A stretch of DNA of 64,000 bases from Corynebacterium kroppenstedtii (lineage in GTDB: Bacteria; Actinomycetota; Actinomycetes; Mycobacteriales; Mycobacteriaceae), in contig NZ_CP069792.1 of NCBI RefSeq assembly GCF_016894245.1, positions 1,426,001-1,490,000 of the forward strand. Reading direction: 5' to 3'. The translations under genes and the position numbers were made by a program. Each line of letters opens with the position of its first letter. The stretch's first letter is position 1. Shown here one piece after another: positions 30,867 through 44,956 of this stretch. Below the pieces are notes generated by a model. It ran no database searches and had not been told where the DNA came from. It saw only the letters and a list, made by a program, of their open reading frames with translations.

Positions 30867-32618
30867 TCAATCGTGGCTTTGCGCAAGGCTCTCGATATAA
30901 ATCTGCCGGTCACAGCAGGTGCGAAGAAGCTCGGGGCTATGGCTGATGATTAGAATCCCAATTCCGCCGTCGCGCGCCCAGGACGTCAGCATGGTCATCG
31001 TGTGCGCAGCTGTTCCCGGGTCCAGCATGGCGGTGACCTCATCGCACACGACAAAGTCCGGTTCGCTTGCCAACACACGCGCCAATATTGCTCGCTGGAG
31101 CTGGCCGTCTGAAACCTGGGAGGGGCGACGATCCAGAAGGTCCGGTGTCACCTGGACTTCCATCGCCGCTTCTTCGGCCGTCATTCCGTGGCTGGTTTCT
31201 TCGATGATTTGCCGCAGAGTGAACCGCGGATTGCACGCCTTCCGCGGCGACTGAAAGAGCATATTGATCTTTCCACGCGCCTGCCTCCGGCCCCCGATAA
31301 CGGACGTAATATTCCGGATTTCCTCTCCGCCGCATGTCACGGTTCCGTGGTCAGCATCAAGCAGCCCACACATGATCCTGGCCAGCGTCGTCTTACCGGA
31401 TCCTGACGGGCCTGCGAGCCCCACAATTTCTCCAGAGTGGATAGAAATATCCAGTTGGTTCAGAACGGGGATCGACGCTTTCTTGCCACTAAAGCTCTTC
31501 GTGATCTTCGACCCCTCCCACACTTTGGGATGCATTTTTCTTTCCGACGCTAACTTCGCGGGTGAGTTTTCGTGTGAACCGCGTGCGTCGTCATGCGAGG
31601 TGGACGAACCGTCGTGCGAAGCGGCGGACAGTGCTGCCGCTTCCTTCAGACGTGATTCGAAGGTGACGGAGTCGCCCAGGTCCACCAGCGAGGGAGGGAA
31701 GCCAGGGATCGGAACCATGCCGCCGGAGGGAAGCGCGGCAAGCAGAGCCCGAGTATATGGGTCATGAGGGTGGTCCAGGATTGTTGACGCTGCGCCTTGT
31801 TCCACAAAACGGGAGGCGTACATCACGCTTAAACGGTCGGCGATGCCAGCGTCCCGCAGTTCCGTTACATCGTGCGTGATTAAAAGGACCGCGCGGTCCG
31901 CGTCGGCAATATCTCGCAACAGAGAGAACAGGGAGGATTTCAATTCCGGGTCCAAGGAGGCCGTGGGCTCGTCGGCAATCACGACTTCGGGATCGCCGGC
32001 AAGGGCGAAGGCGACGGCTACTCGTTGGACCATTCCGCCGGAGAGCTCATGAGGATAAAGGTTTGCCACTCGGGTAGAGAGGTAAACCTGATCCAGCAGC
32101 GTCTCGATTTTCTGAGGTGCGTCGGCAGACGGGGTGAGCTCGGTGATCGTTTCTATGAGTTGGCTTCCGACTGTTCGGACCGGGGTGAGAAAAGTTGCCG
32201 CGGACTGCGGGATCAGGCCGACGTGGTGGCCGGCGAGGGGACTCGGCTTGTCCCGCCAATCGCCGTGCTTGGCGTGGTGGTAGGCAACCATGTCTTGGGA
32301 CCAGCCCGGCGATGGCGACGATTCTTGAACAATGACCGTGCCTTCCACGTGGGCAGACGACGGCACCGTGCCGACGACGGTATTCGCGATGATGGACTTA
32401 CCGCACCCGGATTCGCCGATCACCGCATGGACTTCACCTGGGCATACGGTGAGGGAAATGTCTGTGTTCGCATGAACCCAGCCACGGTCCGCATGGCCGC
32501 GACCGTGGAACCGCCCACGGTGGCCGGGGGCAGGAATTCTCACGCTCAGATGCCGGATGTCGACCGAGGGGATACGCCCTTGATTAGGGGTGAGAGTTTC
32601 GTCAAGGGGGGCAGACAT
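30867..32618 (-). CDS. Fused DppD-DppF-type ATPase of an Opp/Dpp/Nik importer
   Basis: 583 residues containing two ABC ATPase domains that drive import through the two permeases encoded upstream. Domain 1: GESGCGKS (about residue 67), signature LSGGMVQRVAVAFAL, Walker B VVIADEPTASLD. Domain 2: GPSGSGKTT (about 400), altered signature VSDGQLQRA (about 500), Walker B VVCDEVTAMLD. The His switch is in LLITHDVTE and LIISHSPEL. Separate genes are usual; the fused form occurs in some actinobacterial systems. Starts three bases after the preceding permease gene, so one operon. Substrate could be peptide, nickel or a metal-metallophore complex. Confidence 0.92.
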   Translation of the reverse strand: MSAPLDETLTPNQGRIPSVDIRHLSVRIPAPGHRGRFHGRGHADRGWVHANTDISLTVCPGEVHAVIGESGCGKSIIANTVVGTVPSSAHVEGTVIVQESSPSPGWSQDMVAYHHAKHGDWRDKPSPLAGHHVGLIPQSAATFLTPVRTVGSQLIETITELTPSADAPQKIETLLDQVYLSTRVANLYPHELSGGMVQRVAVAFALAGDPEVVIADEPTASLDPELKSSLFSLLRDIADADRAVLLITHDVTELRDAGIADRLSVMYASRFVEQGAASTILDHPHDPYTRALLAALPSGGMVPIPGFPPSLVDLGDSVTFESRLKEAAALSAASHDGSSTSHDDARGSHENSPAKLASERKMHPKVWEGSKITKSFSGKKASIPVLNQLDISIHSGEIVGLAGPSGSGKTTLARIMCGLLDADHGTVTCGGEEIRNITSVIGGRRQARGKINMLFQSPRKACNPRFTLRQIIEETSHGMTAEEAAMEVQVTPDLLDRRPSQVSDGQLQRAILARVLASEPDFVVCDEVTAMLDPGTAAHTMTMLTSWARDGGIGILIISHSPELLRTCCDRQIYIESLAQSHD

Positions 32619-32621
32619 TAG

Positions 32622-33467
32622 CTAGACCTTCCCTTCGCCATAGTCATTAACACGGGAAACTAGCGAGTGCCCGACGTTTGATACTGCTAACGAAAAAACG
32701 ACGAGGAACAATGCTGGGAAGACCAGAATCCACCAGCTGCCAAGCAGTACTCCGCCTTGAGCATCGCGGAGGAGAGTGCCGAGGGCGGCTCTGTGTGCGG
32801 GAAGTCCGACCCCCAGGAACGACAAGGTCGATTCATGCCAAATCGCATGAGGGACTAATAGAATAAGTCCCACGACAGACTGGCTTAATGCAGCTGGGAC
32901 AAGGTGGTGTCCGATTACCCACAGGTGACCACGTCCGCCGAGGTAAGCAGCTTGGATGTAATCCGAGTGTCTAATAGTGAGCACTTGCGCGCGGGTAATA
33001 CGGGCGATAGGAATCCAGTGGGTGGCAACGAGAGCCAGCACGATCGCGGTGGCTGATCCTTTGAAAAAAGAGACCACAACAAGGACGAGAATCAGATGGG
33101 GTAGCGAATTCATTCCATCAACGAAACGCATGGTCAGGCGATCAAGGAATCCGCCGGCGAGAGCAGCGGTAACCCCAATTAACGTCCCAATTATCGCGGA
33201 GAACACAGCCGTGACGACCGCGATGATGAGCGAAATCCTCAGCGCCTGTGCGGTGCGGACGAATAGATCATGCCCGCCGGAATCAGTACCAAACCAGTAG
33301 TCCGAGCTCGGGGGACTATACGCATTGCCGAAACTAACGGTTGTTTGATCCTCCGGCAGGGCAACGGGAACGACGATCGCGTAGGCAACAATCACCGCAA
33401 TCGTGAGCACTGAAATCCAGACGAGTGGTAACCCCGATGACCGACGCTTAAACAGACGCTTAAACAT
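32622..33467 (-). CDS. DppC/NikC-type permease of the importer
   Basis: About 281 residues with an N-terminal membrane helix (VWISVLTIAVIVAYAIVV) and five further segments. The family's cytoplasmic loop lies at about residues 195-215 (SDYIQAAYLGGRGHLWVIGHHLVP), the site that contacts the ATPase. The ATG at 33467 (MFKRLFKRR) has GAGGG nine bases upstream and overlaps the end of the preceding permease frame (stop at 33460), typical of coupled dppB-dppC genes. Confidence 0.9.
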   Translation of the reverse strand: MFKRLFKRRSSGLPLVWISVLTIAVIVAYAIVVPVALPEDQTTVSFGNAYSPPSSDYWFGTDSGGHDLFVRTAQALRISLIIAVVTAVFSAIIGTLIGVTAALAGGFLDRLTMRFVDGMNSLPHLILVLVVVSFFKGSATAIVLALVATHWIPIARITRAQVLTIRHSDYIQAAYLGGRGHLWVIGHHLVPAALSQSVVGLILLVPHAIWHESTLSFLGVGLPAHRAALGTLLRDAQGGVLLGSWWILVFPALFLVVFSLAVSNVGHSLVSRVNDYGEGKV

Positions 33468-34409
33468 TGGCATCGACCCTCGGATCTGTGAGGACGACGC
33501 AGGCGTCGGCAAGCATGTTTCCGATTAGTACTGCGATGGTGATGAGGAGGGTCAGCGTCGATAACAACATGAAATCGAGGGATTTCGCGGAGTCGACCAT
33601 CGCCTGGCCAAGGCCCGGCCAGCCGAAAATCGATTCGATAATGGTTGATCCGACAATGAGTTCCGGTAACCGAGATCCGATGAGCGCAAAGTACGAGGGT
33701 AATGACAGCGGAACGATGTGGTGCAGCATTACCGTGCGTCGATCAAGCCCACGGACACGGGTACCAGTCATTGCTTCGGATTGAATTGCTTCGCGAACGG
33801 AGGCTCTGAGGCTCAAAAGGAACCAGGGCAGCTGGCTGATTCCCAGGATGACTGCGGGGAGAGCGACATGGCGGAGAGTGCCAGCGAACGTAACAGGTTG
33901 TCCTGGATCTGTGAGCCCACCAGCAGGAGCGATAGGGATCCACAAACAAAAGACCAATAGAGCAACAAGGGCAAGGACAAAGGGGGGAGGGACTGAAGCA
34001 AAGTGGCGATAAACCCGGCGATTCGGTCGACAAGACCACCTTCACGAAGGCCAGCCACGACACCGAGCACGAATGAGACGACCAGAGTAAGGGTTAAAGC
34101 CAGCGCTCCCAGTAGAATTGACCACCCCAGACGCTGCGCTAGGACGTCGGCTACTGGCATGCGGTAGAACCGTGATGTTCCCAGGTCACCTGTGCAGACG
34201 CTGGTCACCCATGACCACCAGGAGGCGTACCAGGGGCCTCCAATGTTGAGGGTCCGGATCAGATCCTCACGTTGTTCGTCGGTTAAAGCACCGGCGTTGC
34301 CGTGGGTATAGGCTTCGAGCGGGTCGAAGGGGCTTAGCGATGCCAAGAAAAACATCGCGGCCGTGACGGCCAACGCGAGAAGCGGCAGGGAACAGATCCG
34401 GCGGAGCAT
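33460..34409 (-). pseudogene. DppB/NikB-type permease gene with a frameshift
   Basis: The permease is split over two frames. The N-terminal part reads from the ATG at 34409 (MLRRICSLPLLALAV, AGGA upstream) through FYRMPVADVLAQRL and GFIATLLQSLPP, then drifts into the wrong frame. The C-terminal part continues in another frame from VLALVALLVFCLWIP through REAIQSEAMTGTRVRGLDRRT, the expected permease loop, to TDPRVDANV at the stop. The break is at the run of six C on the coding strand (33982-33987 here); seven would restore one intact protein. So it is either a recent inactivation, a phase-variable tract or a sequencing error. All other members of the operon look intact. Confidence 0.88.
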
Positions 34410-34538
34410 AAGGATTCCTATGTCACGCCGGCGGCTGTGGCTAGACGCCGAGATCGATCGTCGACGATGGCGATCGGTCGGATTATCGATAGGCTTTTGA
34501 CCTGGGGAAATTCGGCGCAGTCTCGGTGTAGACACGGT

Positions 34539-36218
34539 TTAGTTGTGCCATTCCTCAATGTTGTACCAAGGCCCGAACAAGGAGCCGTGGGAATGCGGTT
34601 CGACAATCTGGTCGCCAGTTTTCATGCCATGGCTATTGAGCACGTAGGAGTGAGCGCCGTACGTGAGTGCGAGCATGGCTGGCTTCTTCCGATACTCCTG
34701 TTGGACTTTTTTGTAGATCTTGTTGCGCTTGTCCTTGTTGGACTCGGATCGCGCCTGGTCCAGCAGCTTGTCGATTTCTGGATTGACGTAGTCCGACGCG
34801 TTATCCCACTTTGCCCCGACGCCATCGGCTGCATACTTCGAATGCAAAATATGATAGATCTGTCCGTCGATGGTGTAAGGCTCACCGCCGCCGCCCAGCA
34901 TGACCGGCGTGGAGTTGTACACCTCTTCGGTCACCGCGCTGGAGTCCTTGGCCACCGGGTTGATCTGAATGCCAATGGCCTTCAGGTCCGAGGCTGCGGC
35001 GAGGGTTAAATCCTTTCGGGCGGCATCGCGGTTAGGGAAGTAGATAACATCCATTTCCGCCCGCTGGCCGTCCTTGACTCTGATGCCGTCGGATTCTTTA
35101 ACCCAACCGGCGTCGTCGAGAATTTTTTCCGCCTTCTTTGTGTCGTGGGGGATCTCCGAATCTTTGTCGTAGGCATCGCCATAGGCGTCGGTGATGAAGG
35201 TACTGGTTGGGGTTCCGTGGCCTGCATAAATGTCGTCAATCATCTTTTGTCGATCGACGCTGAGGTTCATGGCCATGCGGATCGCGTCGTCACCGGCGAC
35301 GGGGTGAGCAGCGGGAAGGGAGATGCCCCGCCAATCCAGGGAATCAATATGCTCCGCGGAAATGTCCTTGGATTTGGCGACGGTGTCGGCCAGCTTGGCT
35401 TCGAGCATAGTGCCATCGCCTTCGCCGACGCGCATCTGCTGCGCCCGGGTGTTGTCGTCGGTGTTGTGCCGGATGACGATCTTCTCGGTCTCGGGGGCAT
35501 CGCCCCAGTAGCCATCGCGCGCCTCGAGGATCGCTTCATCTGGACGTAGAGAGGTGACCTTGTATGGGCCCGTTCCAATGGGATCTGAGTTAATCTTCAT
35601 GTCCTCTGCCTTCGCCGGGTTGGTGAAATCGAAGGCTTCAGACGGAGCGATAGCTCGGTAGATGCGACGGTCGAACTCGGAATCAGGGTGCTTGAGGTGG
35701 AACTTGACGGCGTGGTCCCCGTCCGGTGTGACGTCGTCGATTGATTCAACTGCCGTGGCCTCTGTGGAGGCGAAGCGCGGATCGATGATCGCTTTATAAG
35801 TGGCGACGACATCCTCCGGCCCGAAGGACGATCCGTCCGAGAAGGAAATGTCTTTCTTCAACGGGACGGTCCATTCCGTCAAATCATCGTTGGATTTGGC
35901 TTCGCCATCGGCGAGCACCGGCTTCGGCTTGGAGTTTTTTCCTGGGGAAACACGGTAGAGCGAGTCGTAGATGTGGGACTCTCCGTTTCGTCCGTGTCCA
36001 AGAAGTGGGTTGTAGTTACCGAGCTTCATATTTTCCAGGACGACGAATTGCTTGGTGGATTTGTCTGAGCTTTCGCCGTCTCCGCCGGTGGACGGCGTTG
36101 AGCATGCTGAAAGGGCCAGGGAGAGGGATGCTACGGCGGCAAGTGCGGTGGTGAAGTGGCGGCTTCGTGACTTCTTCAGGGGAGAGCGGAAGCTGGGTGA
36201 GGAGTGAGTTCGGGACAC
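34539..36218 (-). CDS. Opp/Dpp/Nik-type substrate-binding lipoprotein
   Basis: 559-residue SBP_bac_5 family protein, the first gene of the importer operon. An N-terminal signal peptide ends in the lipobox LSAC, so Cys39 is lipidated and the protein sits on the outer face of the membrane. Family elements: LLGHGRNGESHIYDSLYRV, GTGPYKVTSLRPDEAI, RMAMNLSVDRQKMIDDIYAGHG and the C-terminal YKKVQQEYRKKPAMLALTYG. The ligand cannot be read from the sequence; peptides, nickel and opine-type metallophores are all known for the family. Start is a GTG at 36218 with GAAAG upstream. Confidence 0.92.
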   Translation of the reverse strand: MSRTHSSPSFRSPLKKSRSRHFTTALAAVASLSLALSACSTPSTGGDGESSDKSTKQFVVLENMKLGNYNPLLGHGRNGESHIYDSLYRVSPGKNSKPKPVLADGEAKSNDDLTEWTVPLKKDISFSDGSSFGPEDVVATYKAIIDPRFASTEATAVESIDDVTPDGDHAVKFHLKHPDSEFDRRIYRAIAPSEAFDFTNPAKAEDMKINSDPIGTGPYKVTSLRPDEAILEARDGYWGDAPETEKIVIRHNTDDNTRAQQMRVGEGDGTMLEAKLADTVAKSKDISAEHIDSLDWRGISLPAAHPVAGDDAIRMAMNLSVDRQKMIDDIYAGHGTPTSTFITDAYGDAYDKDSEIPHDTKKAEKILDDAGWVKESDGIRVKDGQRAEMDVIYFPNRDAARKDLTLAAASDLKAIGIQINPVAKDSSAVTEEVYNSTPVMLGGGGEPYTIDGQIYHILHSKYAADGVGAKWDNASDYVNPEIDKLLDQARSESNKDKRNKIYKKVQQEYRKKPAMLALTYGAHSYVLNSHGMKTGDQIVEPHSHGSLFGPWYNIEEWHN

Positions 36219-36487: not shown

Positions 36488-36516
36488 TTGACTTACTTAG
36501 GTAAGGCTCCAATACT
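36488..36516 (+). promoter_or_regulatory. Promoter with DtxR-like box ahead of the metallophore cluster
   Basis: TTGACT at 36488 and AATACT at 36511 form a sigma-A-type promoter with 17-base spacing. The spacer and -10 carry TTAGGTAAGGCTCCAATAC (36497-36515), whose left 12 bases match the DtxR/IdeR consensus at 11 positions while the right half is poor. Binding of iron-loaded DtxR here would block RNA polymerase, so the genes downstream should be induced by iron limitation. The rightward operon starts about 50 bases further on. Confidence 0.65.
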
Positions 36517-36566
36517 TTTGTTTCTCACGTGATCCCTCGTAGAACTAATGCTCCCCAGGAAGAATT

Positions 36567-37751
36567 GTGAAAATACTGAATACGTCAAAACGTCGAGCTA
36601 GGAGGGCAATCCTCGCTAGTATCCTTGCCGCATCGATGGCTATAGCAGGGTGTTCGGGCCCGAATTCTGACAATGACTCCAAGGCGGATGAAAAGCAGTC
36701 TGTGAAAGACGTGATGGGCAGGACCGTTGAGATACCGGCTCACCCAGAGCGACTTCTATTCGGTGGTCAACGGTTGCTGTACACCACTGCACTACTCGAT
36801 AAAGAAAATCCGCTTGAGAACATCGTCGCCTGGCCAGATGATCTCGAACAAAATGACATGGCTACATACAAGAAATACAGAGAGAAATTCCCAGATATAG
36901 CCAACATCACGAAGACTGGTGAAGTGTGGGACGGCTCGATGTCACTAGAGCAAGCTCTCCAGGCTCGTCCAGACGTCTTCGTCGTCAGTGCGGGAAGTTT
37001 TGATGCTGCCAAAGAAGCTGGGTTAATCGAGGGACTTGAGAAAGCCGGTGTGCCGACCGTCACGGTCGATTATTTCATCGATCCCGCGAAAAATACGGTT
37101 CCTTCGGTCACGTTGATGGGGAAACTCACGGGGCACACCGATGAAGCCAAGAACTACACGGATTTTTATCAGGAGAAACTCGATCGAGTTCAAAAACGTC
37201 TGAAGGACTCTAATCAACCGGCGACAGACACGTTCTTGTGGCGGGCACCGGGCTACTTTGATTGCTGTTCAACCTTCAATAAATCGAACTTGGCGACGTT
37301 AGTGAACGAAGCTGGTGGTAACAATCTTGGTGACAGCATGATTGATACTAAACAAGGGCAAGTCTCTCCCGAATCCCTCGCCGGGAAGAACCCAGATGTG
37401 ATCGTGGCTACCGGTGCGGATTGGTCGCCAGATCGTTCACCCGTCAAGGGAAAGAAGTACGTGGCCCTTGGTTATGACGAACCCGCAGATAAGGCCAAAC
37501 AACAACTTAGCGAGGTTGTCTCCAGTCAAGCTGCTGTTTCTCAGGTTGACGCCGTGAAAAACCACCGCACTTATGCCATGTGGCACCACTTTTACGATTC
37601 CCCTTACAACGTCATCGCCATTGAATGGATGGCTAAGGCGATGCATCCGGAACTCTTTGGGGACCTGGATCCTGATGCTGACATGAAGACGCTGCATGAG
37701 CAGTTCTTGCCTGTGAAATACTCAGGTACATTCTGGACTCAGTTGTCATGA
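36567..37751 (+). CDS. Iron-complex (FecB/BtuF-type) substrate-binding lipoprotein
   Basis: 394 residues. Basic N-terminus, hydrophobic segment and lipobox MAIAGC, so a surface lipoprotein. The PF01497-type core begins with VMGRTVEIPAHPERLLFGG and contains MSLEQALQARPDVFVVS and SLAGKNPDVIVATGADW. Such proteins bind ferric siderophores, haem or cobalamin and hand them to a FecCD-type permease, which is encoded next with an ATGA overlap. The closest subgroup is not certain. GTG start at 36567 with AGGAAG upstream. First gene behind the DtxR-like box. Confidence 0.9.
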   Translation: MKILNTSKRRARRAILASILAASMAIAGCSGPNSDNDSKADEKQSVKDVMGRTVEIPAHPERLLFGGQRLLYTTALLDKENPLENIVAWPDDLEQNDMATYKKYREKFPDIANITKTGEVWDGSMSLEQALQARPDVFVVSAGSFDAAKEAGLIEGLEKAGVPTVTVDYFIDPAKNTVPSVTLMGKLTGHTDEAKNYTDFYQEKLDRVQKRLKDSNQPATDTFLWRAPGYFDCCSTFNKSNLATLVNEAGGNNLGDSMIDTKQGQVSPESLAGKNPDVIVATGADWSPDRSPVKGKKYVALGYDEPADKAKQQLSEVVSSQAAVSQVDAVKNHRTYAMWHHFYDSPYNVIAIEWMAKAMHPELFGDLDPDADMKTLHEQFLPVKYSGTFWTQLS

Positions 37752-38848
37752 GTTCAGTTGAGTTTGAGCCGTCGGTAGCCTCCGCCGTTAATGCCCTTTC
37801 TGACGACGAAATGGAAGAAGAACTTTATGCTGCTTCGTCTCGGAAAAAGCTTTTATTTATCGCAGTTCTGGCTGTCGCACTAGTCATTTTCACTGTCTGC
37901 GATTTCTTGATAGGCGGAGGCTCGATGCCTGCTTCCGATGCGCTATCGACACTTTTCAATCCTTCTCACTCACGGCCCATTGACTATCAGATAATTTGGG
38001 ATATTCGCCTACCGATGACAGTAACTGCTGTGCTCGTGGGAGGAGCACTTGCAGCCGCCGGCGCCCAAATGCAAACAATTCTGGGAAATCCACTCGCGGA
38101 ACCCTACACATTGGGCATATCCGCAGCGGCCAGCTTTGGCGCAGCGCTGGCAGTAGTTACCGGCTTCTCGGCGACCACGATCGGTGGAACACTGGGAATG
38201 TCTGGGGCTTCGTGGATCTTTGGGATCGCCGCGTGCGGAATCATCATCATCTTTTCTCGGCTGCGTGGAAGCGGAGCCGAGACAATGATCTTGCTTGGTA
38301 TCGCGATCGTATTTTTCTTTGACGCGATGCTCGCTCTGATGCAGTACATGGCCTCTGAAGTGCAGCTTGAGCAAGTCGTTTTCTGGACCCTAGGCAGTTT
38401 AACGCGTGCGACGTGGCCGCAAATTGGAGTCCTCGCTGTTCTCCTAGTGATTTGCCTAGCAGGCTTTTACCGCAATGCGTGGGTCCTTACAGCCTTCAGG
38501 TTGGGCGATGACAGGGCAATGTCGATGGGCATCAATGTCCCTCGCGTCCGCAATGTAACTTTGGTGGCCGTTAGCTTATTGGCTGCGACGTCAGTTGCTA
38601 TGGCCGGAACTATCGGTTTCATCGGGTTGGTTGGGCCGCATATCGCGCGAATTGTCGTTGGGGAGGATCAGCGGTACTTCCTGACCGCTTCCGTTCTGTC
38701 GGGCTCGGTGTTGCTGGTGAGCGCCTCGGTGTGCGCAAAGCTCATCCAGCCCGGGGTGATTCTTCCTGTTGGCATTATTACCGCAGTGGTTGGCGTGCCT
38801 GTATTCGTCGCCATTATTGCCTCCTCCCGAACGCGAAACTGGTCCTAG
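37748..38848 (+). CDS. FecCD/BtuC-type permease for iron complexes
   Basis: 366 residues with about ten membrane segments. Family marks: DIRLPMTVTAVLVGGALAAAGA near residue 95, the LGNPLAEPYTLGIS loop, MSMGINVPRVRN, and GTIGFIGLVGPHIAR close to the C-terminus, the loop that contacts the ATPase. Only one permease gene is present, so it must act as a homodimer. An N-terminal cytoplasmic extension of about 35 residues is acidic. Overlaps the binding-protein gene by four bases (ATGA). Confidence 0.93.
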   Translation: MSSVEFEPSVASAVNALSDDEMEEELYAASSRKKLLFIAVLAVALVIFTVCDFLIGGGSMPASDALSTLFNPSHSRPIDYQIIWDIRLPMTVTAVLVGGALAAAGAQMQTILGNPLAEPYTLGISAAASFGAALAVVTGFSATTIGGTLGMSGASWIFGIAACGIIIIFSRLRGSGAETMILLGIAIVFFFDAMLALMQYMASEVQLEQVVFWTLGSLTRATWPQIGVLAVLLVICLAGFYRNAWVLTAFRLGDDRAMSMGINVPRVRNVTLVAVSLLAATSVAMAGTIGFIGLVGPHIARIVVGEDQRYFLTASVLSGSVLLVSASVCAKLIQPGVILPVGIITAVVGVPVFVAIIASSRTRNWS

Positions 38849-38862
38849 TAGAGGTATCGACC

Positions 38863-39684
38863 ATGTCACATGAGCCAGCTTCTAGGAGTCGTCGTTTCAA
38901 TACTCGATCTGTAACGACGATCGACGGTAAAGAAGAATTTTTCCAAGGACGCAACATCACCTTTTCCTATTCCGCTCGAGAAACGACTCCAACGCTTCAG
39001 GATGTCACGATCCCACCATGCTCCCCGGGAACCATCACGGCTTTGATTGGGCCGAACGGTTCAGGCAAGTCAACACTTTTGAGATGTCTAGCTGGGCTAG
39101 AGAAAAGCGAAGGAACAGTAATCGGGCCGAAGGCCTTGTATCTTCCGCAAGATCCTCCGCCTAAAAGTGCCTTAACTGTGTTTGAGACCGTTCTGCTAGC
39201 CCACCAACAAAGTCTTAAAGGATTCGCGGGGTTGCGCGTATCGCCGGAAACCCGCGCCAAAGTTCGAACTGTGCTCGCCACAATGGGGCTAGCTGAATTA
39301 GAGCATCGGCCGATGGGGCAGCTCTCGGGAGGACAACGTCAGCTTGTCAGCTGTGCGCAAGCCTTGATTCGGCGCCCTAAGGTTTTGTTACTCGACGAAC
39401 CTACGAGCGCTCTGGACTTGAAAAACCAACTATCGCTACTGGAGTGGGTTCGTGATTATGCGGTGGCTACGCCAGCTGCAGTGGTGCTCACGGTTCATGA
39501 CCTTACCCAGGCCGCCAGAATTGCTGACCAAGTAGTAGTCCTCGACCAGGGGAGAAACGTCGGCTCAGGCTTACCTGAGGAGACCATCACCGAATCCATG
39601 CTCGCCTCGGTGTATCGTGTCCGCTCTCATATCACTCGAGGGGAGGCGGGATTATTCATCGACGCCCTATCTCCGTTGACCTAG
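38863..39684 (+). CDS. FecE/FepC-type ABC ATPase for iron-complex import
   Basis: About 273 residues. Walker A IGPNGSGKSTLLR, Q-loop near LYLPQDPP, signature LSGGQRQLVSCAQAL, Walker B VLLLDEPTSALD and His switch LTVHDL. The ATG at 38863 follows GAGG; the open frame reaches back to 38731 within the permease gene but that part is not coding. Third component of the importer; the biosynthetic genes follow after about 100 bases. Confidence 0.92.
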   Translation: MSHEPASRSRRFNTRSVTTIDGKEEFFQGRNITFSYSARETTPTLQDVTIPPCSPGTITALIGPNGSGKSTLLRCLAGLEKSEGTVIGPKALYLPQDPPPKSALTVFETVLLAHQQSLKGFAGLRVSPETRAKVRTVLATMGLAELEHRPMGQLSGGQRQLVSCAQALIRRPKVLLLDEPTSALDLKNQLSLLEWVRDYAVATPAAVVLTVHDLTQAARIADQVVVLDQGRNVGSGLPEETITESMLASVYRVRSHITRGEAGLFIDALSPLT

Positions 39685-39786
39685 CCGGCCATTGCCCAGT
39701 CATTTCTTACTTTGCCTTACTTTGCGAATTCCCACCGAAATACATGCCGCTCCACCCGTTTTCCCCATCCCAAGGAAGGAAACCTC

Positions 39787-40788
39787 ATGCCCGCTGTTGG
39801 AACGCCAGAACTTCGCTCTGATCGGAGTCTCCGTCTGCTGACTAGATCGGATTTAAAAGACATAGAGCTTGAACCGTCAAAGGTTATTGAACTTGTCGAA
39901 GACGGCTATCGTGCCTTGGATGAAGGACAATCTCGATGTCCTACGAAAATGATGATTGAATTACCAGTTAAAAGCCGGGATTCGATTGCGTTTTCGATGC
40001 TTGGCTTTGATGGTTATCGCGACCTTGTCGGCTACAAAACGTCGTATCGAAAGGGTGGCGATAATCCCGACCATTACTACACGACCATAACCTTGTACGA
40101 CGATTCAACAGGTTTGCCGTATGCTTTGATGGACTGTCAGAAAGTAGGAGCACTCCGAACACCTGCGACGACTGCACTCATAGCCCGACAGTGCAGTAAA
40201 CCCGATCCTCGGTCGGTGTTGATGCTGGGTACCGGAATTCAAGCCGTCAACACGTTGCCTTACCTGGCGACAGCGCTACCTTCCCTGTCCACATTCACGT
40301 TTCACGGAACACATGAAGGTGGCATCCACTCAACTCGCGAGCACTTTCGTAGGTGGTTTCCCGATCTGGACCTCAGGTTCGCTGAGGATGTTAAGGAGGC
40401 GGTTCAGGAATCTGACATCGTTGTAGTCGCTTCCGGTCGCGCATGTCATCCACCCATCCATACTGACTGGCTTCCCAAGGGTGGCCTACTCATTTCAGTG
40501 GCATCAAAGGGCGTAGCAGATGGGGCAGTTGCAGAAGCTGATCGTGTCGTGGCCACGAGTGAGGGGCAATATGCCTTAGTCGGAAAACGTCTACGCCAGG
40601 GTAGCAACCAGCTCGATGGCGTACTTCCAGAACTCATTTCATCAGGTCGAACCATCCGAAGTCATGCCGATGAAAAGGTGTTCGCTTTTAGTTCGGGGAT
40701 GATTGTGACTGATATCCCAGTTGCTGATGAGCTTGCTATGAGGGCGCTGGCAGCTGGACGAGGGCGGGAGGTACGGCTATGGGATTAG
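39787..40788 (+). CDS. sbnB: SbnB-like N-(1-amino-1-carboxy-2-ethyl)glutamate dehydrogenase
   Basis: 333 residues of the ornithine cyclodeaminase/mu-crystallin fold. The N-terminal part has IELVEDGYRALDEGQSRCPTKM and the active-site lysine region LVGYKTSYRKGG; the NAD-binding motif MLGTGIQA is at about residue 148. In Staphylococcus aureus SbnB oxidises the SbnA product to 2-oxoglutarate and L-2,3-diaminopropionate. The call rests on family plus the SbnA-like gene two positions on; ornithine cyclodeaminase or an opine-type dehydrogenase is possible. ATG at 39787 follows AAGGAAGGAAACC. Confidence 0.82.
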   Translation: MPAVGTPELRSDRSLRLLTRSDLKDIELEPSKVIELVEDGYRALDEGQSRCPTKMMIELPVKSRDSIAFSMLGFDGYRDLVGYKTSYRKGGDNPDHYYTTITLYDDSTGLPYALMDCQKVGALRTPATTALIARQCSKPDPRSVLMLGTGIQAVNTLPYLATALPSLSTFTFHGTHEGGIHSTREHFRRWFPDLDLRFAEDVKEAVQESDIVVVASGRACHPPIHTDWLPKGGLLISVASKGVADGAVAEADRVVATSEGQYALVGKRLRQGSNQLDGVLPELISSGRTIRSHADEKVFAFSSGMIVTDIPVADELAMRALAAGRGREVRLWD

Positions 40789-42335
40789 CGGAACAAGCGG
40801 ATCCACACCTGTGCCTCGAGCCCATGTTGGAAAGCTGGGAGGAAGAAGTAATAGACGACCCGCATTTCTTGTATTTTCTCCGCAGATTGTCTGGAAAACC
40901 GTTTCACCTTTTGCATCCGGCTACATTCAGTAAAAACTTAGCCGCATACATTGACGTCTTTGACCATCATGGAGTGGAAGGACACGTTCTCTTTGCACGA
41001 AAAGCCAATAAAGCCCAGTGCTGGCTTCATGAGGTAGCGCTCTCCGAACAGGGGTGTGATGTTGCGAGTGGGCCTGAACTCGTGGGTGCCCTAGCTGAAG
41101 GTATTGACCCGAGTCGGCTCACCATCACCGGGGCCGATAAAAGTGAAACCCTCATTTGGCTAGGTATACGACACGAGTGCCTTTTTGCGCTTGACTCTTT
41201 GGTTGAACTCGAACGTGTAAGAAAAATCGCCAGCCAAAGTTCTCGAGTTGCTCGGGTTCTTCTACGACTACGGCCTGATACTCAGCCGAACACAAGATTC
41301 GGTCTTTCGTTTTCTGAATGGCTGAGCCATGAAAGTGTGGCACAGCGTTTAACATCGAGTTTCCCATCGAAAGATTTTACTGAGAGAGTTTGCTTATCTA
41401 TAGAGGGGGTTTGCTTCCATCTCGATGGCTACGACATAGACGAACGTGTACGCGCCATTCGCAAAGCCGTCGATCAGATTGCTGAGCTGCGACGACGAGG
41501 GCACTCCGCAGTCACCGTCGACATTGGGGGCGGCTTCACTGCTCCATATACAGGCCATGATGAGTGGGAGAGTTTTCAGAGCACGATAAGTACCGGGGAT
41601 TACCACGCTGGGCGGGTCCCTTCAGGCACATATCCCTATGGTAATCCACTTCCTACGGGCTCCGCGATGTTGAGTTCAATCTTTGACAAAGTGGGCCCGG
41701 CCTTACGTGAGAACAGTATTTTCGTATGCATAGAACCTGGCCGTGGCCTTTTAGCTGGGGCTGGCGATACGGTCTTCTCCGTGCAAGGTGTCAAAGATCG
41801 GGTGAACTCGGAAATCGAACCTTGTCTCAATTCAGAACCGGGGGGATCAGTTAGTCTGCCCGACCCATATTCGCTCATCGTTGTGGATGGGCTATCGATG
41901 AGTCTGTCTGAGCAGTGGAAAGGACGGGAGTTTTCTCCCGATCCAACACTATGGCCTAGGGAATCGCGGCAGAGAGAACAACGATCAATCGGTAGCACAA
42001 AAACAAAGTCATGGCGCGCTGCGGTAGGGGGAGCGAGCTGCATGGAATACGACATGTTGACTTGGCGAAAGGTATGGTTTGACAGACCAGCAGAAGTCGG
42101 CGACCTGCTCATCTATCACAACACCGCCGGCTATCAGATGGATAAGAACGAGAGTCAATTCCACCAATTACCTTTACCCACCCGGTTCGTGCTCGAAGAG
42201 CTGTCCGAAGACGGCTTGTCACCAGAAAACATCAGTGTATCTGTGCCAACGTTCGGCCGTTTAGGTATTTCCAATTGGGCAGACCGGTGGACTTTACGAA
42301 TTGATCGGCCATTAGTGGAGAGAGGCTGGCTATGA
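40779..42335 (+). CDS. PLP-dependent decarboxylase-fold enzyme, SbnH/Y4yA-like
   Basis: 518 residues of the alanine-racemase/ornithine-decarboxylase fold type III. The PLP lysine is in FARKANKA (about residue 75), the phosphate-binding glycines in VDIGGGF (about 249), EPGRG at about 318, and the catalytic Cys-containing motif GASCMEYDML at about 420. It resembles SbnH, which decarboxylates the citryl-diaminopropionate intermediate of staphyloferrin B, and the Y4yA family often found beside SbnA/SbnB genes. The length exceeds ordinary diaminopimelate decarboxylases (about 420), with inserts between 150 and 240 and before the Cys motif. Overlaps the SbnB-like gene by ten bases; ribosome site GGGAGG. 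Substrate unknown. Confidence 0.82.
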   Translation: MGLAEQADPHLCLEPMLESWEEEVIDDPHFLYFLRRLSGKPFHLLHPATFSKNLAAYIDVFDHHGVEGHVLFARKANKAQCWLHEVALSEQGCDVASGPELVGALAEGIDPSRLTITGADKSETLIWLGIRHECLFALDSLVELERVRKIASQSSRVARVLLRLRPDTQPNTRFGLSFSEWLSHESVAQRLTSSFPSKDFTERVCLSIEGVCFHLDGYDIDERVRAIRKAVDQIAELRRRGHSAVTVDIGGGFTAPYTGHDEWESFQSTISTGDYHAGRVPSGTYPYGNPLPTGSAMLSSIFDKVGPALRENSIFVCIEPGRGLLAGAGDTVFSVQGVKDRVNSEIEPCLNSEPGGSVSLPDPYSLIVVDGLSMSLSEQWKGREFSPDPTLWPRESRQREQRSIGSTKTKSWRAAVGGASCMEYDMLTWRKVWFDRPAEVGDLLIYHNTAGYQMDKNESQFHQLPLPTRFVLEELSEDGLSPENISVSVPTFGRLGISNWADRWTLRIDRPLVERGWL

Positions 42336-43426
42336 GCAATCGACCTGAAGATCAGAACCACCTGCTGCCGCCAAGTGGCTTAAGCTCAAGCCCCGTACGA
42401 AAAGTCCCCAAAGATTACAGCTTTCCTCGTTCGGTATGTGATCTTGTCGGCAGAACGCCGCTTCTCGAGCTAGCTAGGGTCGGCAACGGCAGTCGTCTGT
42501 TGATTAAGTTGGAGTGTTTTAATCCAACTGGATCGGCAAAGATTCGGATGGCTCTAGCCATGGTGCGCAGTGCTGAACGTCGGGGACAGATAAAACCGGG
42601 GTATACCATCGTTGAGCCTACTTCTGGGAATACCGGGCTAGGCCTGGCTATTGCTGCTGTTCAACTGGGCTATAAGTTCATTGGGGTGGTCGATTCCCAC
42701 GCGGCGCCGTCGAAATTGGCAGCTATGAAAGCATATGGAGCGGAACTAATAGTTGTTGATGGGCCGTCAGATCGCCCCTCGACAATGCTCCGACGGAAGA
42801 AGGCCGAGGAGATTTGTTCCTCGTCCCCATATGTGTGGTGGCCTGACCAGCATAGTAATCCGAATAATCCTCTAGGCTACTCACACCTAGCTGAGGAATT
42901 GGATAGTGCTATTTCGGCCAATATCGACGTCCTGGTTGCTTCGGTGGGCACAGGGGGAACCCTTTGCGGAACGGCACGCCGTTTGCGTGAGCTAGGCCAT
43001 TCATTAACCACGATTGGAGTCGAACCAGAAGGCTCGATCATATTTGGTCCGCCAGCTGGGTCTTACAAGCAAAGTGGAGCTGGAGCTCCAGGAGGGTTTC
43101 CGGTGGGCTGCAATGTCGATACGGAAGCTATTGACCAAGGTTTAAAGATAAATGATGTGAAAGCCTTCGCTACCTGCCGAGTCCTAGCACGTGAGAAAGG
43201 CCTGATGCTGGGTGGTACCTCGGGAGCAGCCATCTATGAGGCGCTGAGACAATTGCCGAGCTTTCCTGCTGGTACGACGATGGTAGTGATCGCCTGCGAT
43301 GCCGGTGAAAAGTATCAAAATACGATATTTGATGACCGGTGGATGATTGCCAATAAATTATTGTCGGATATTGCAGAACACCAGGTTAGTGGAATGTTAA
43401 GGGCTTTTGAGACTCTATTGCCCTAG
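42332..43426 (+). CDS. sbnA: SbnA-like synthase for the diaminopropionate precursor
   Basis: 364 residues of the cysteine synthase/beta-substituted alanine synthase fold. PLP Lys in NPTGSAKIRMA (about residue 69; the family usually has S-x-K-x-R), SGNTG (about 98), phosphate loop GTGGTLCG (about 206) and GGTSGAA (about 294). In staphylococci SbnA condenses O-phospho-L-serine with L-glutamate to form the SbnB substrate. The pairing with an SbnB-like gene in one operon makes this role more likely than cysteine synthase. Overlaps the decarboxylase gene as ATGA. Confidence 0.84.
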   Translation: MSNRPEDQNHLLPPSGLSSSPVRKVPKDYSFPRSVCDLVGRTPLLELARVGNGSRLLIKLECFNPTGSAKIRMALAMVRSAERRGQIKPGYTIVEPTSGNTGLGLAIAAVQLGYKFIGVVDSHAAPSKLAAMKAYGAELIVVDGPSDRPSTMLRRKKAEEICSSSPYVWWPDQHSNPNNPLGYSHLAEELDSAISANIDVLVASVGTGGTLCGTARRLRELGHSLTTIGVEPEGSIIFGPPAGSYKQSGAGAPGGFPVGCNVDTEAIDQGLKINDVKAFATCRVLAREKGLMLGGTSGAAIYEALRQLPSFPAGTTMVVIACDAGEKYQNTIFDDRWMIANKLLSDIAEHQVSGMLRAFETLLP

Positions 43427-43486
43427 CTAACCGTCAGACAGCGAATCTGAATAGATATTGGTCTACGGCAGAGGGAGCTTTTGCGC

Positions 43487-44956
43487 GTGGGCTCTAAAGA
43501 TCGTGTTGAAACAAGCTATGAGCTAAATAAGAATTCCGGTGAAAAAGAGCGCTTAGACGCCCAGACTCCTAGTTATCTGGAGATCTCTAGGCTTTCGTTG
43601 CCTATTGCTGGAGTTCAGCTAGCCACAGTTGCATTGACCTCGACCGATGTGGCCATGCTGGGCACGCTGAGTGTGGTGGCTATCGGAGCCGGCGGACTGG
43701 CGATGCAGTTCTATAACCAAATTCGGACTATGTGCGTCGGTATGGTTACTGCTAGCGGAAATAAGGTCGCTGAAGCAGTCGCAAAACTAGAGAACGCAGA
43801 GGCGCGAGGGGCAATCGATGATTCTCGCCGTGACGTTCTTAAAGCAGGAATTAGCAAGCAAGTACGCGTCTCATTCGAAGTAGCGACGGTCATATCTGCA
43901 TTGGGTGCGATTATTGTTGCTCTTCTGGGGGCGAGTCTATTTGCTTTACCGGTCCATGGTGACACTGCCCGAATAGCTTTCGGTATGACGGTCGCTTTGG
44001 CCCCGGGACTGGTTCCAATGCTGTGGCTGAACGTGTTACGACAGTACGCGGTAGGGATGCGAAAGCCAGGATCGTTACTTGTTGTTACCCTGTGGTCAAT
44101 AGCGGTCAATGCTGCGGTGAACTGGTTGATGGTGACCGTTGCCCCTACTACGGCCTGGGCTGTGGCCGGAATTGGTCTCTCGACTACGGTTGTCCAGGTT
44201 TTTACTTTGGTGGCATTTTCTCTCAAGATTCGAAAAGATCCTGATCTTGGTGACTACGTGGAATTTAGACCTCAAACAGGAGATATGACAGCAGCACGTG
44301 AGCTACTCCGTGTCGGGTGGCCTGTCTCCTTAACCTATGGTTCGGAAGCCGCTTTGACTACGATCGCTGGGATTGCAATGTCAATGGTTAGCCCGACGAT
44401 GCTTGCAGCCCACACTGTCGTTAATCAGATCGCTTATATCGTGTATCAAGTTTGTATCGGGTTTTCTCATGGAAGTTCGATACTCGTGAGTAGGGGACTC
44501 CAGGCGAACCATCCGCGCGTTGTTATCACTGAGACCGTGCGTCGAGTGGCGATCCTTGTGGGTATCTACCTGGGCTTTATAGGGCTTGTATGGGCGACCT
44601 GTGGACGGTGGGTCGTCCGAATCTTTGCCTGGAAGGCAACTGACGAAGTTATGACCGTCGCAATAATCTTGATGTTCTTTGCCATCCTGCAGCAGTTCGC
44701 TAAGGGCTCCCAGAATGTTGCGGTAGGCCTTTTGCGGGGGCTGCGCGATACAAGTTCGGGGCTCAAAGCCACATTAATCGGATACTGGTGTGTGGGAATT
44801 CCTGCACTATTCATACTCGGATTAGGCCTCCGTTGGGAAGCGTACGGAGTTTGGCTCGGGTTGATCCTCGGCTTCGGAACGACGACGTTGCTGTTGATGC
44901 GCGTACTTCGTCGAAGGGTTCGGGTGCTCCCCGCCACGCAAAACTCAAGTTTGTGA
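43487..44956 (+). CDS. MATE-family efflux transporter, candidate metallophore exporter
   Basis: About 489 residues with twelve membrane segments in two MATE halves; the first is ISRLSLPIAGVQLATVALTSTDVAMLG and the second starts near GWPVSLTYGSEAALTTIAG. MATE proteins use Na+ or H+ gradients to export small molecules. As the last gene of the operon it is the natural exporter of the product made by the three enzymes. The GTG at 43487 sits nine bases after GAGGGAG; a TTG at 43481 is also in frame. Confidence 0.9.
   Translation: MGSKDRVETSYELNKNSGEKERLDAQTPSYLEISRLSLPIAGVQLATVALTSTDVAMLGTLSVVAIGAGGLAMQFYNQIRTMCVGMVTASGNKVAEAVAKLENAEARGAIDDSRRDVLKAGISKQVRVSFEVATVISALGAIIVALLGASLFALPVHGDTARIAFGMTVALAPGLVPMLWLNVLRQYAVGMRKPGSLLVVTLWSIAVNAAVNWLMVTVAPTTAWAVAGIGLSTTVVQVFTLVAFSLKIRKDPDLGDYVEFRPQTGDMTAARELLRVGWPVSLTYGSEAALTTIAGIAMSMVSPTMLAAHTVVNQIAYIVYQVCIGFSHGSSILVSRGLQANHPRVVITETVRRVAILVGIYLGFIGLVWATCGRWVVRIFAWKATDEVMTVAIILMFFAILQQFAKGSQNVAVGLLRGLRDTSSGLKATLIGYWCVGIPALFILGLGLRWEAYGVWLGLILGFGTTTLLLMRVLRRRVRVLPATQNSSL

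Follow-up and report, generated by a model that had tools for sequence, protein, structure and literature searches.

Gene content and the four-gene core

This work concerns a 64,000-nucleotide stretch of the Corynebacterium kroppenstedtii genome (contig NZ_CP069792.1, 1426001-1490000; hereafter the window), in which seven same-strand genes at 36567-44956 form a candidate metallophore operon. The host genome is one contig of 2,483,614 bases and is 99.99% complete. A first-pass annotation of this DNA had described seven codirectional genes, for a binding lipoprotein, a FecCD permease, a FecE ATPase, an SbnB-like protein, a decarboxylase dependent on pyridoxal phosphate (PLP), an SbnA-like protein and a MATE exporter, with three overlapping junctions. 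Gene coordinates and Pfam assignments agreed with this description (Table 1), and the overlaps were located at 37748-37751 (ATGA, substrate-binding protein (SBP)/FecCD), 40779-40788 (ten bases, SbnB-like/decarboxylase) and 42332-42335 (ATGA, decarboxylase/SbnA-like). The G+C content per kb was 50-55% in the operon (36-45 kb) versus 54.5-60.3% in the flanks.

Table 1. Features of the operon and of the divergent importer (positions in the window)
Feature	Position	Strand	Basis
Promoter and DtxR-like box	36488..36516 (box 36497-36515)	+	Motif scan
YiuA-family ferric-chelate-binding lipoprotein (SBP), putative	36567..37751	+	Binding-protein family comparison
FecCD-type permease	37748..38848	+	Pfam PF01032
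FecE-type ATPase	38863..39684 (longest frame from 38731)	+	Pfam PF00005
OCD/SbnB-like dehydrogenase	39787..40788	+	PF02423
Y4yA-family PLP decarboxylase	40779..42335	+	PF02784; family name from homologue source names
CysK/SbnA-like beta-replacement enzyme	42332..43426	+	PF00291
MATE exporter	43481..44956	+	PF01554; fourth core gene in 66/79 loci
Double ATPase, SBP_bac_5 (Nik/Cnt-like) ABC importer	30867..32618	-	Pfam ABC_tran, two stretches; homologues beside other cores
Second permease, SBP_bac_5 importer	32622..33512	-	Homologues beside other cores
First permease, SBP_bac_5 importer (frames 33813-34535 and 33460-33957)	33460..34535	-	Frame break
SBP_bac_5 substrate-binding lipoprotein	34539..36218	-	Pfam

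The last four genes form a core that recurs well beyond this genus. The decarboxylase search gave 74 loci, from which the duplicate L060 was removed; of seven Corynebacterium regions fetched, L131 was the same contig as L005, so six were added and 79 loci were examined. At 66 loci the SbnB-like, decarboxylase, SbnA-like and MATE genes followed one another in this sequence and shared a strand; these loci span Nocardia, Amycolatopsis, Kribbella, Tsukamurella, Corynebacterium, Rhizobiales and Burkholderiales. The 13 loci lacking it were eight from Mycobacterium, in which the CysK-like gene is elsewhere or missing, and L035, L045, L058, L069 and L074, which include short or broken loci. Residues K75, H214, G250-252, EPGR 319-322, C421 and D425 of the decarboxylase (71 rows) and K70, TSGNTG 97-102 and GTGG 206-209 of the SbnA-like enzyme (66 rows) were near-invariant; they are taken here as the catalytic residues of the two families.

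The nearest named relative found was Corynebacterium parakroppenstedtii (L001), with 94% identity in the decarboxylase; across the three enzymes, dN/dS between it and the window was 0.07-0.24. The SBP genes of the two do not differ in DNA sequence (dN = dS = 0), whereas SbnA has a dS of 0.33, indicating a recently exchanged segment.

Kinship with EDDS and EDHA clusters

No IucA/IucC gene for an NRPS-independent siderophore (NIS) synthetase was found in the complete genome, and matches to the condensation domain of non-ribosomal peptide synthetases (NRPS) occurred only at 538975-543633 and 1118018-1124377, both outside the window. Neither enzyme type was found in the operon by Pfam scan. The first-pass annotation had correctly noted this absence from the window; its account of it, a diaminopropionate chelator in the frame of staphyloferrin B whose ligase lay elsewhere or was replaced by an unusual condensation step, is not supported. 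The SbnA-like protein reached 241 of 350 bits and the SbnB-like protein 86 of 327 bits against the NCBIfam equivalog cut-offs, both far below. The resemblance to the sbn genes is one of distant SbnA, SbnB and decarboxylase families, but the NIS synthetases of that system were not found in this genome.

In excerpts of the literature, the [S,S]-ethylenediaminedisuccinate ([S,S]-EDDS, aes) genes of Amycolatopsis japonicum are placed in a Zur setting (PMC6103462, PMC4993170, PMC9252823), and the structure of EDDS is described as pointing to a mechanism unlike the NRPS and NIS pathways (PMC4993170). Further excerpts report an EDDS-like aminopolycarboxylic-acid cluster in Corynebacterium striatum (PMC10486106), and AesA-AesD as operon genes for the related, iron-responsive siderophore EDHA, also reported from Corynebacterium pseudotuberculosis and C. 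ulcerans (PMC10702961). The aminopolycarboxylate metallophore class is supported by antiSMASH 7. The cluster in the window appears to be of this already described aes/EDDS type, known in Corynebacterium too, which makes its chelator with neither NRPS nor NIS, and so no ligase would be missing. What stands of the earlier metallophore proposal is a small chelator made without a ligase, for which MATE would be the exporter and the Fec-type transporter the route of re-uptake, with DtxR as the probable regulator; the diaminopropionate frame gives way to enzymes of the aes ([S,S]-EDDS/EDHA) type.

We regard as most improbable a scheme in which the SbnA- and SbnB-like enzymes feed diaminopropionate to a ligase elsewhere, whether the NRPS at 1117883-1125625 or an NIS enzyme. 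In S. scabies, SbnA/SbnB genes are known to adjoin an NRPS, and an NRPS of 2580 aa with a stand-alone AMP ligase does lie 0.34 Mb away; however, the best DtxR match in the stretch scanned before it was 12/19, the core, complete with decarboxylase and exporter, is found as one block across many genera, and the two proteins fall below the equivalog cut-offs. An NIS ligase was rejected on the absence of IucA/IucC, and nothing links the NRPS to the locus. The NRPS of that region (L144, 1117883-1127438) has condensation, AMP-binding, carrier and thioesterase domains, and the gene for the stand-alone AMP-binding protein comes after it. As for opine-like (staphylopine) genes, all seven genes belong to other Pfam families, although no search aimed at nicotianamine synthase or opine dehydrogenase was made.

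The closest known system is that of [S,S]-EDDS, in which, as judged from the relatives L038, L042 and others, SbnB-like, Y4yA-type decarboxylase, SbnA-like and MATE genes likewise share one operon without a ligase. The SbnB-like protein of the window was 53-63% identical to those of nine of the ten loci compared and 30% identical to that of the tenth, the EDHA-like L134. Identity to the Amycolatopsis loci L038 and L042 was 55%, against 30-31% for the Corynebacterium loci L134-L136. These last three, with a TauD dioxygenase, a divergent core, another SBP_bac_5 subfamily and DtxR boxes of 14-16/19, are probably EDHA clusters; among the 79 loci and the window, the L134 TauD homologue was found in them only (tblastn, E 1e-4).

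The EDHA cluster is credited to Spohn 2018 by citing papers. EDHA, the hydroxyarginine variant, is itself very unlikely as the product in the window. According to excerpts of the sources, it is an iron-responsive aes siderophore with aesA-D type genes, found in Streptomyces and in the two Corynebacterium species named above; the window, however, has no dioxygenase and carries another SbnB-like branch, provided that L134-L136 are EDHA clusters. Judging by the product's name, an arginine hydroxylase would be expected next to the core of such a cluster. The C. striatum region shares genus and class with the window, and a C. striatum decarboxylase homologue (P0072) is 41% identical to that of the window, but the region is described as zinc-dependent and EDDS-like (PMC10486106).

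Candidate regulatory sites and the two importers

The promoter, TTGACT-17-AATACT, was found once where shuffled sequences gave 0.5 +/- 0.8, which is weak when taken alone. The DtxR-like box TTAGGTAAGGCTCCAATAC lies inside it, as the earlier claim of an overlap had implied, and matches 13/19 positions of a consensus entered by hand. Its left half, TTAGGTWAGSCT, is exact and unique in the window and was reached in none of 1000 shuffles, and the box is one of three genome sites within one mismatch of TTAGGTWAGSCTNNNNTNA. Two DtxR-family protein matches above cut-off were present in the genome. The operon may be under DtxR control. A second DtxR-like site (13/19) at 39560-39578, within the 3' end of the FecE gene and ~230 bases 5' of the SbnB-like gene, is a possible internal regulatory site.

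The binding protein belongs to the YiuA family, and structures of YiuA relatives are known in complex with iron and with Fe-NTA, where NTA (nitrilotriacetate) is an aminopolycarboxylate. YiuABC of Yersinia shares this family, but the window protein is a Gram-positive lipoprotein linked to chelator synthesis, and YiuA Arg165 aligns to its Phe170. When the loci were sorted by importer, DtxR/IdeR boxes preceded the core at 13 of 17 loci with a Fec importer versus 2 of 58 without. Both arrangements occur in one Nocardia transvalensis genome: L008 is a core with a Zur box and no Fec importer, whereas the core at L010 has the importer and an IdeR box. Zur boxes of 12-13/15 directly preceded the core at five of the ten Amycolatopsis loci without a Fec importer (L032, L038, L039, L042 and L048), and at five of seven in the Amycolatopsis keratiniphila/decaplanina tree group. 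No residues separating Fec from non-Fec loci were found in the SbnB-like and decarboxylase proteins. At the level of whole genomes, ZnuA genes were present in all 33 searched. The literature titles and abstracts searched gave no description of an aes core combined with a YiuA/Fec importer, although the iron-type arrangement may have been described before, in Spohn 2018.

A divergent SBP_bac_5 ATP-binding cassette (ABC) transporter (30867-36218), absent from the first-pass annotation, adjoins the operon and fits the same kind of system. Its binding protein was 44-55% identical to those of 17 core-bearing loci, 100% in L001 and weaker in L043, L045 and L136. Genes of this family scoring >120 bits against any of four queries were found at 20 loci without and three with a Fec importer among the 79; four of the 20 (L068 and L134-L136) are of the other subfamily with DtxR boxes of 14-16/19. 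At the 14 loci with an L016-type protein (at least 63% identity to L016), an upstream scan, done without shuffles, gave Zur-like sites that scored 11/15 or better in all 14 and 12/15 or better in 11. Thirteen of these sites lay 29-50 bases before the aligned start, the offset at L053 being distorted by the locus end. In the Rhizobiales locus L026, which has the window-type protein, the best Zur match was 10/15. Besides the window, both importers adjoin one core in the Corynebacterium loci L001, L005 and L132. The divergent operon is of a type seen elsewhere beside cores with Zur boxes, and it may import another metal complex or have done so in the past. Its first permease is split between two overlapping frames in the window, whereas the two pieces share a single phase in L001, L005, L132, L138, L016 and L026 (phases from match coordinates), suggesting a recent break or a sequencing error.

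These data bear on whether the chelator would be a zincophore like classical [S,S]-EDDS, with the DtxR-like box a chance match or regulation dual. Zur boxes of at least 12/15 directly precede 9 of the 58 Fec-less cores, and the kind of importer found downstream of Zur boxes in Nocardia and its relatives is retained in the window. However, the Zur match is at most 10/15 in the intergenic region common to both operons (consensus entered by hand), YiuA-type importers accompany DtxR boxes, and the Nik-type importer is frame-broken in the window, so that we consider a zincophore unlikely. Where EDDS is Zur-regulated, the window has an operonic YiuA/Fec importer and a DtxR-like box. In our judgement, the locus likely encodes a metallophore system of the aminopolycarboxylate (EDDS-type, aes-like) class, with iron as its main metal.

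What the sequence itself establishes is which genes are present, how far they are conserved, that NIS genes are lacking, where the boxes match and to which family the binding protein belongs; the product, its substrates, the metal and the regulation are inferred from it. Several results weigh against this iron reading. When the 348-bp intergenic region was shuffled 1000 times, a full box as good as 13/19 arose in 5.8% of cases, which does not set the whole box apart from chance. With up to two mismatches, TTAGGTWAGSCTNNNNTNA gave 17 genome sites versus 50 for the reversed control, showing no enrichment. With up to three, a strict DtxR consensus had no site in the whole genome (reversed control, 1), and an IUPAC consensus had one palindromic site, located elsewhere (reversed control, 6 per strand). 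Box evidence at the genome scale is therefore weak, and we rely on the exact half site and the related loci. Among those, the Fec/DtxR association comes down to 3-6 independent contrasts, the sign test was not significant, and at a threshold of 14/19 some random pairings reversed its direction. L001 is not independent for the box, its SBP gene being identical to that of the window. L020, with a Fec importer, also carries a Zur box of 13/15, and a Zur-like site of 12/15 stands beside a DtxR-like site of 13/19 before the second importer of L005 (10/15 and 13/19 in L132). The other five of the ten Amycolatopsis loci had no Zur box directly before the core, and L038 and its kin, which are not A. 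japonicum itself, were taken as the characterised aes genes by kinship, box and gene order.

Proposed pathway and its loss in Corynebacterium

In the proposed pathway, the SbnA-like enzyme would couple activated serine with an amino acid, which is probably aspartate. Next, the Y4yA-type enzyme would remove the serine-derived carboxylate while the amine is still primary, generating the ethylenediamine half. The SbnB-like dehydrogenase would then attach a second oxo-acid to this amine reductively, and for EDDS this would be oxaloacetate. This order is proposed because PLP decarboxylation needs a primary amine. An EDDS-like second arm seems likelier than hydroxyarginine because of the closer SbnB-like identity to L038 and L042 than to L134-L136. 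MATE would export the chelator and YiuA/FecCD/FecE import its ferric complex, with DtxR repressing the operon when iron is plentiful.

We also surveyed 242 Corynebacterium genomes, giving loci to the 30 best decarboxylase places; 82 genomes with weaker matches received none. The four-gene core was found at nine of the 30 places, six of the window type and three EDHA-like, leaving 103 of the 112 genomes with a decarboxylase match not shown to carry it. A Fec-type binding protein of at least 51% identity was present in 15 of the 242 genomes, six with the core and nine without a decarboxylase match >40%. All six of these nine that were read (L138-L143) had kept MATE, SBP, FecCD and FecE, and in L142 the SbnB- and SbnA-like genes were reduced to stumps. 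The relative G088 lacks the SBP-to-MATE cluster at the equivalent place, its only binding-protein match (37%) lying elsewhere. Its second importer is decayed: the binding-protein gene carries three in-frame stops, the first permease has one (phase unchanged) and the second has none, while the ATPase match is spread over three phases. This loss pattern fits a link of chelator synthesis with both importers, and retention of MATE without the core suggests, speculatively, a role in recycling. Separately, both long frames that were scanned (L098 and L088, 931-936 aa) fuse an NAD_binding_9 domain to a decarboxylase-fold domain; the two are neighbouring genes in L085.

A broader picture, which we offer tentatively, is that the core is a portable unit switched between metals, combined with either Zur and a Nik-type importer or DtxR and a YiuA/Fec importer. 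Both importers would take up one and the same chelator in some Corynebacterium, while related species would lose synthesis, keep the importers and MATE, and live on and recycle the chelator of others.

As read from its genes, the class of this system is ordinary and its metal setting is unusual, being apparently iron-geared with a YiuA/Fec importer in the operon and a second importer alongside. Kroppenstedtii-group Corynebacterium are human-associated. If the iron assignment is true, EDDS-type chelators, best known as a soil actinomycete zincophore, would extend to iron uptake in this group, and the zinc-type and iron-type cores in one Nocardia genome, together with producer and importer-only Corynebacterium, would offer natural pairs for studying metal choice and chelator sharing.

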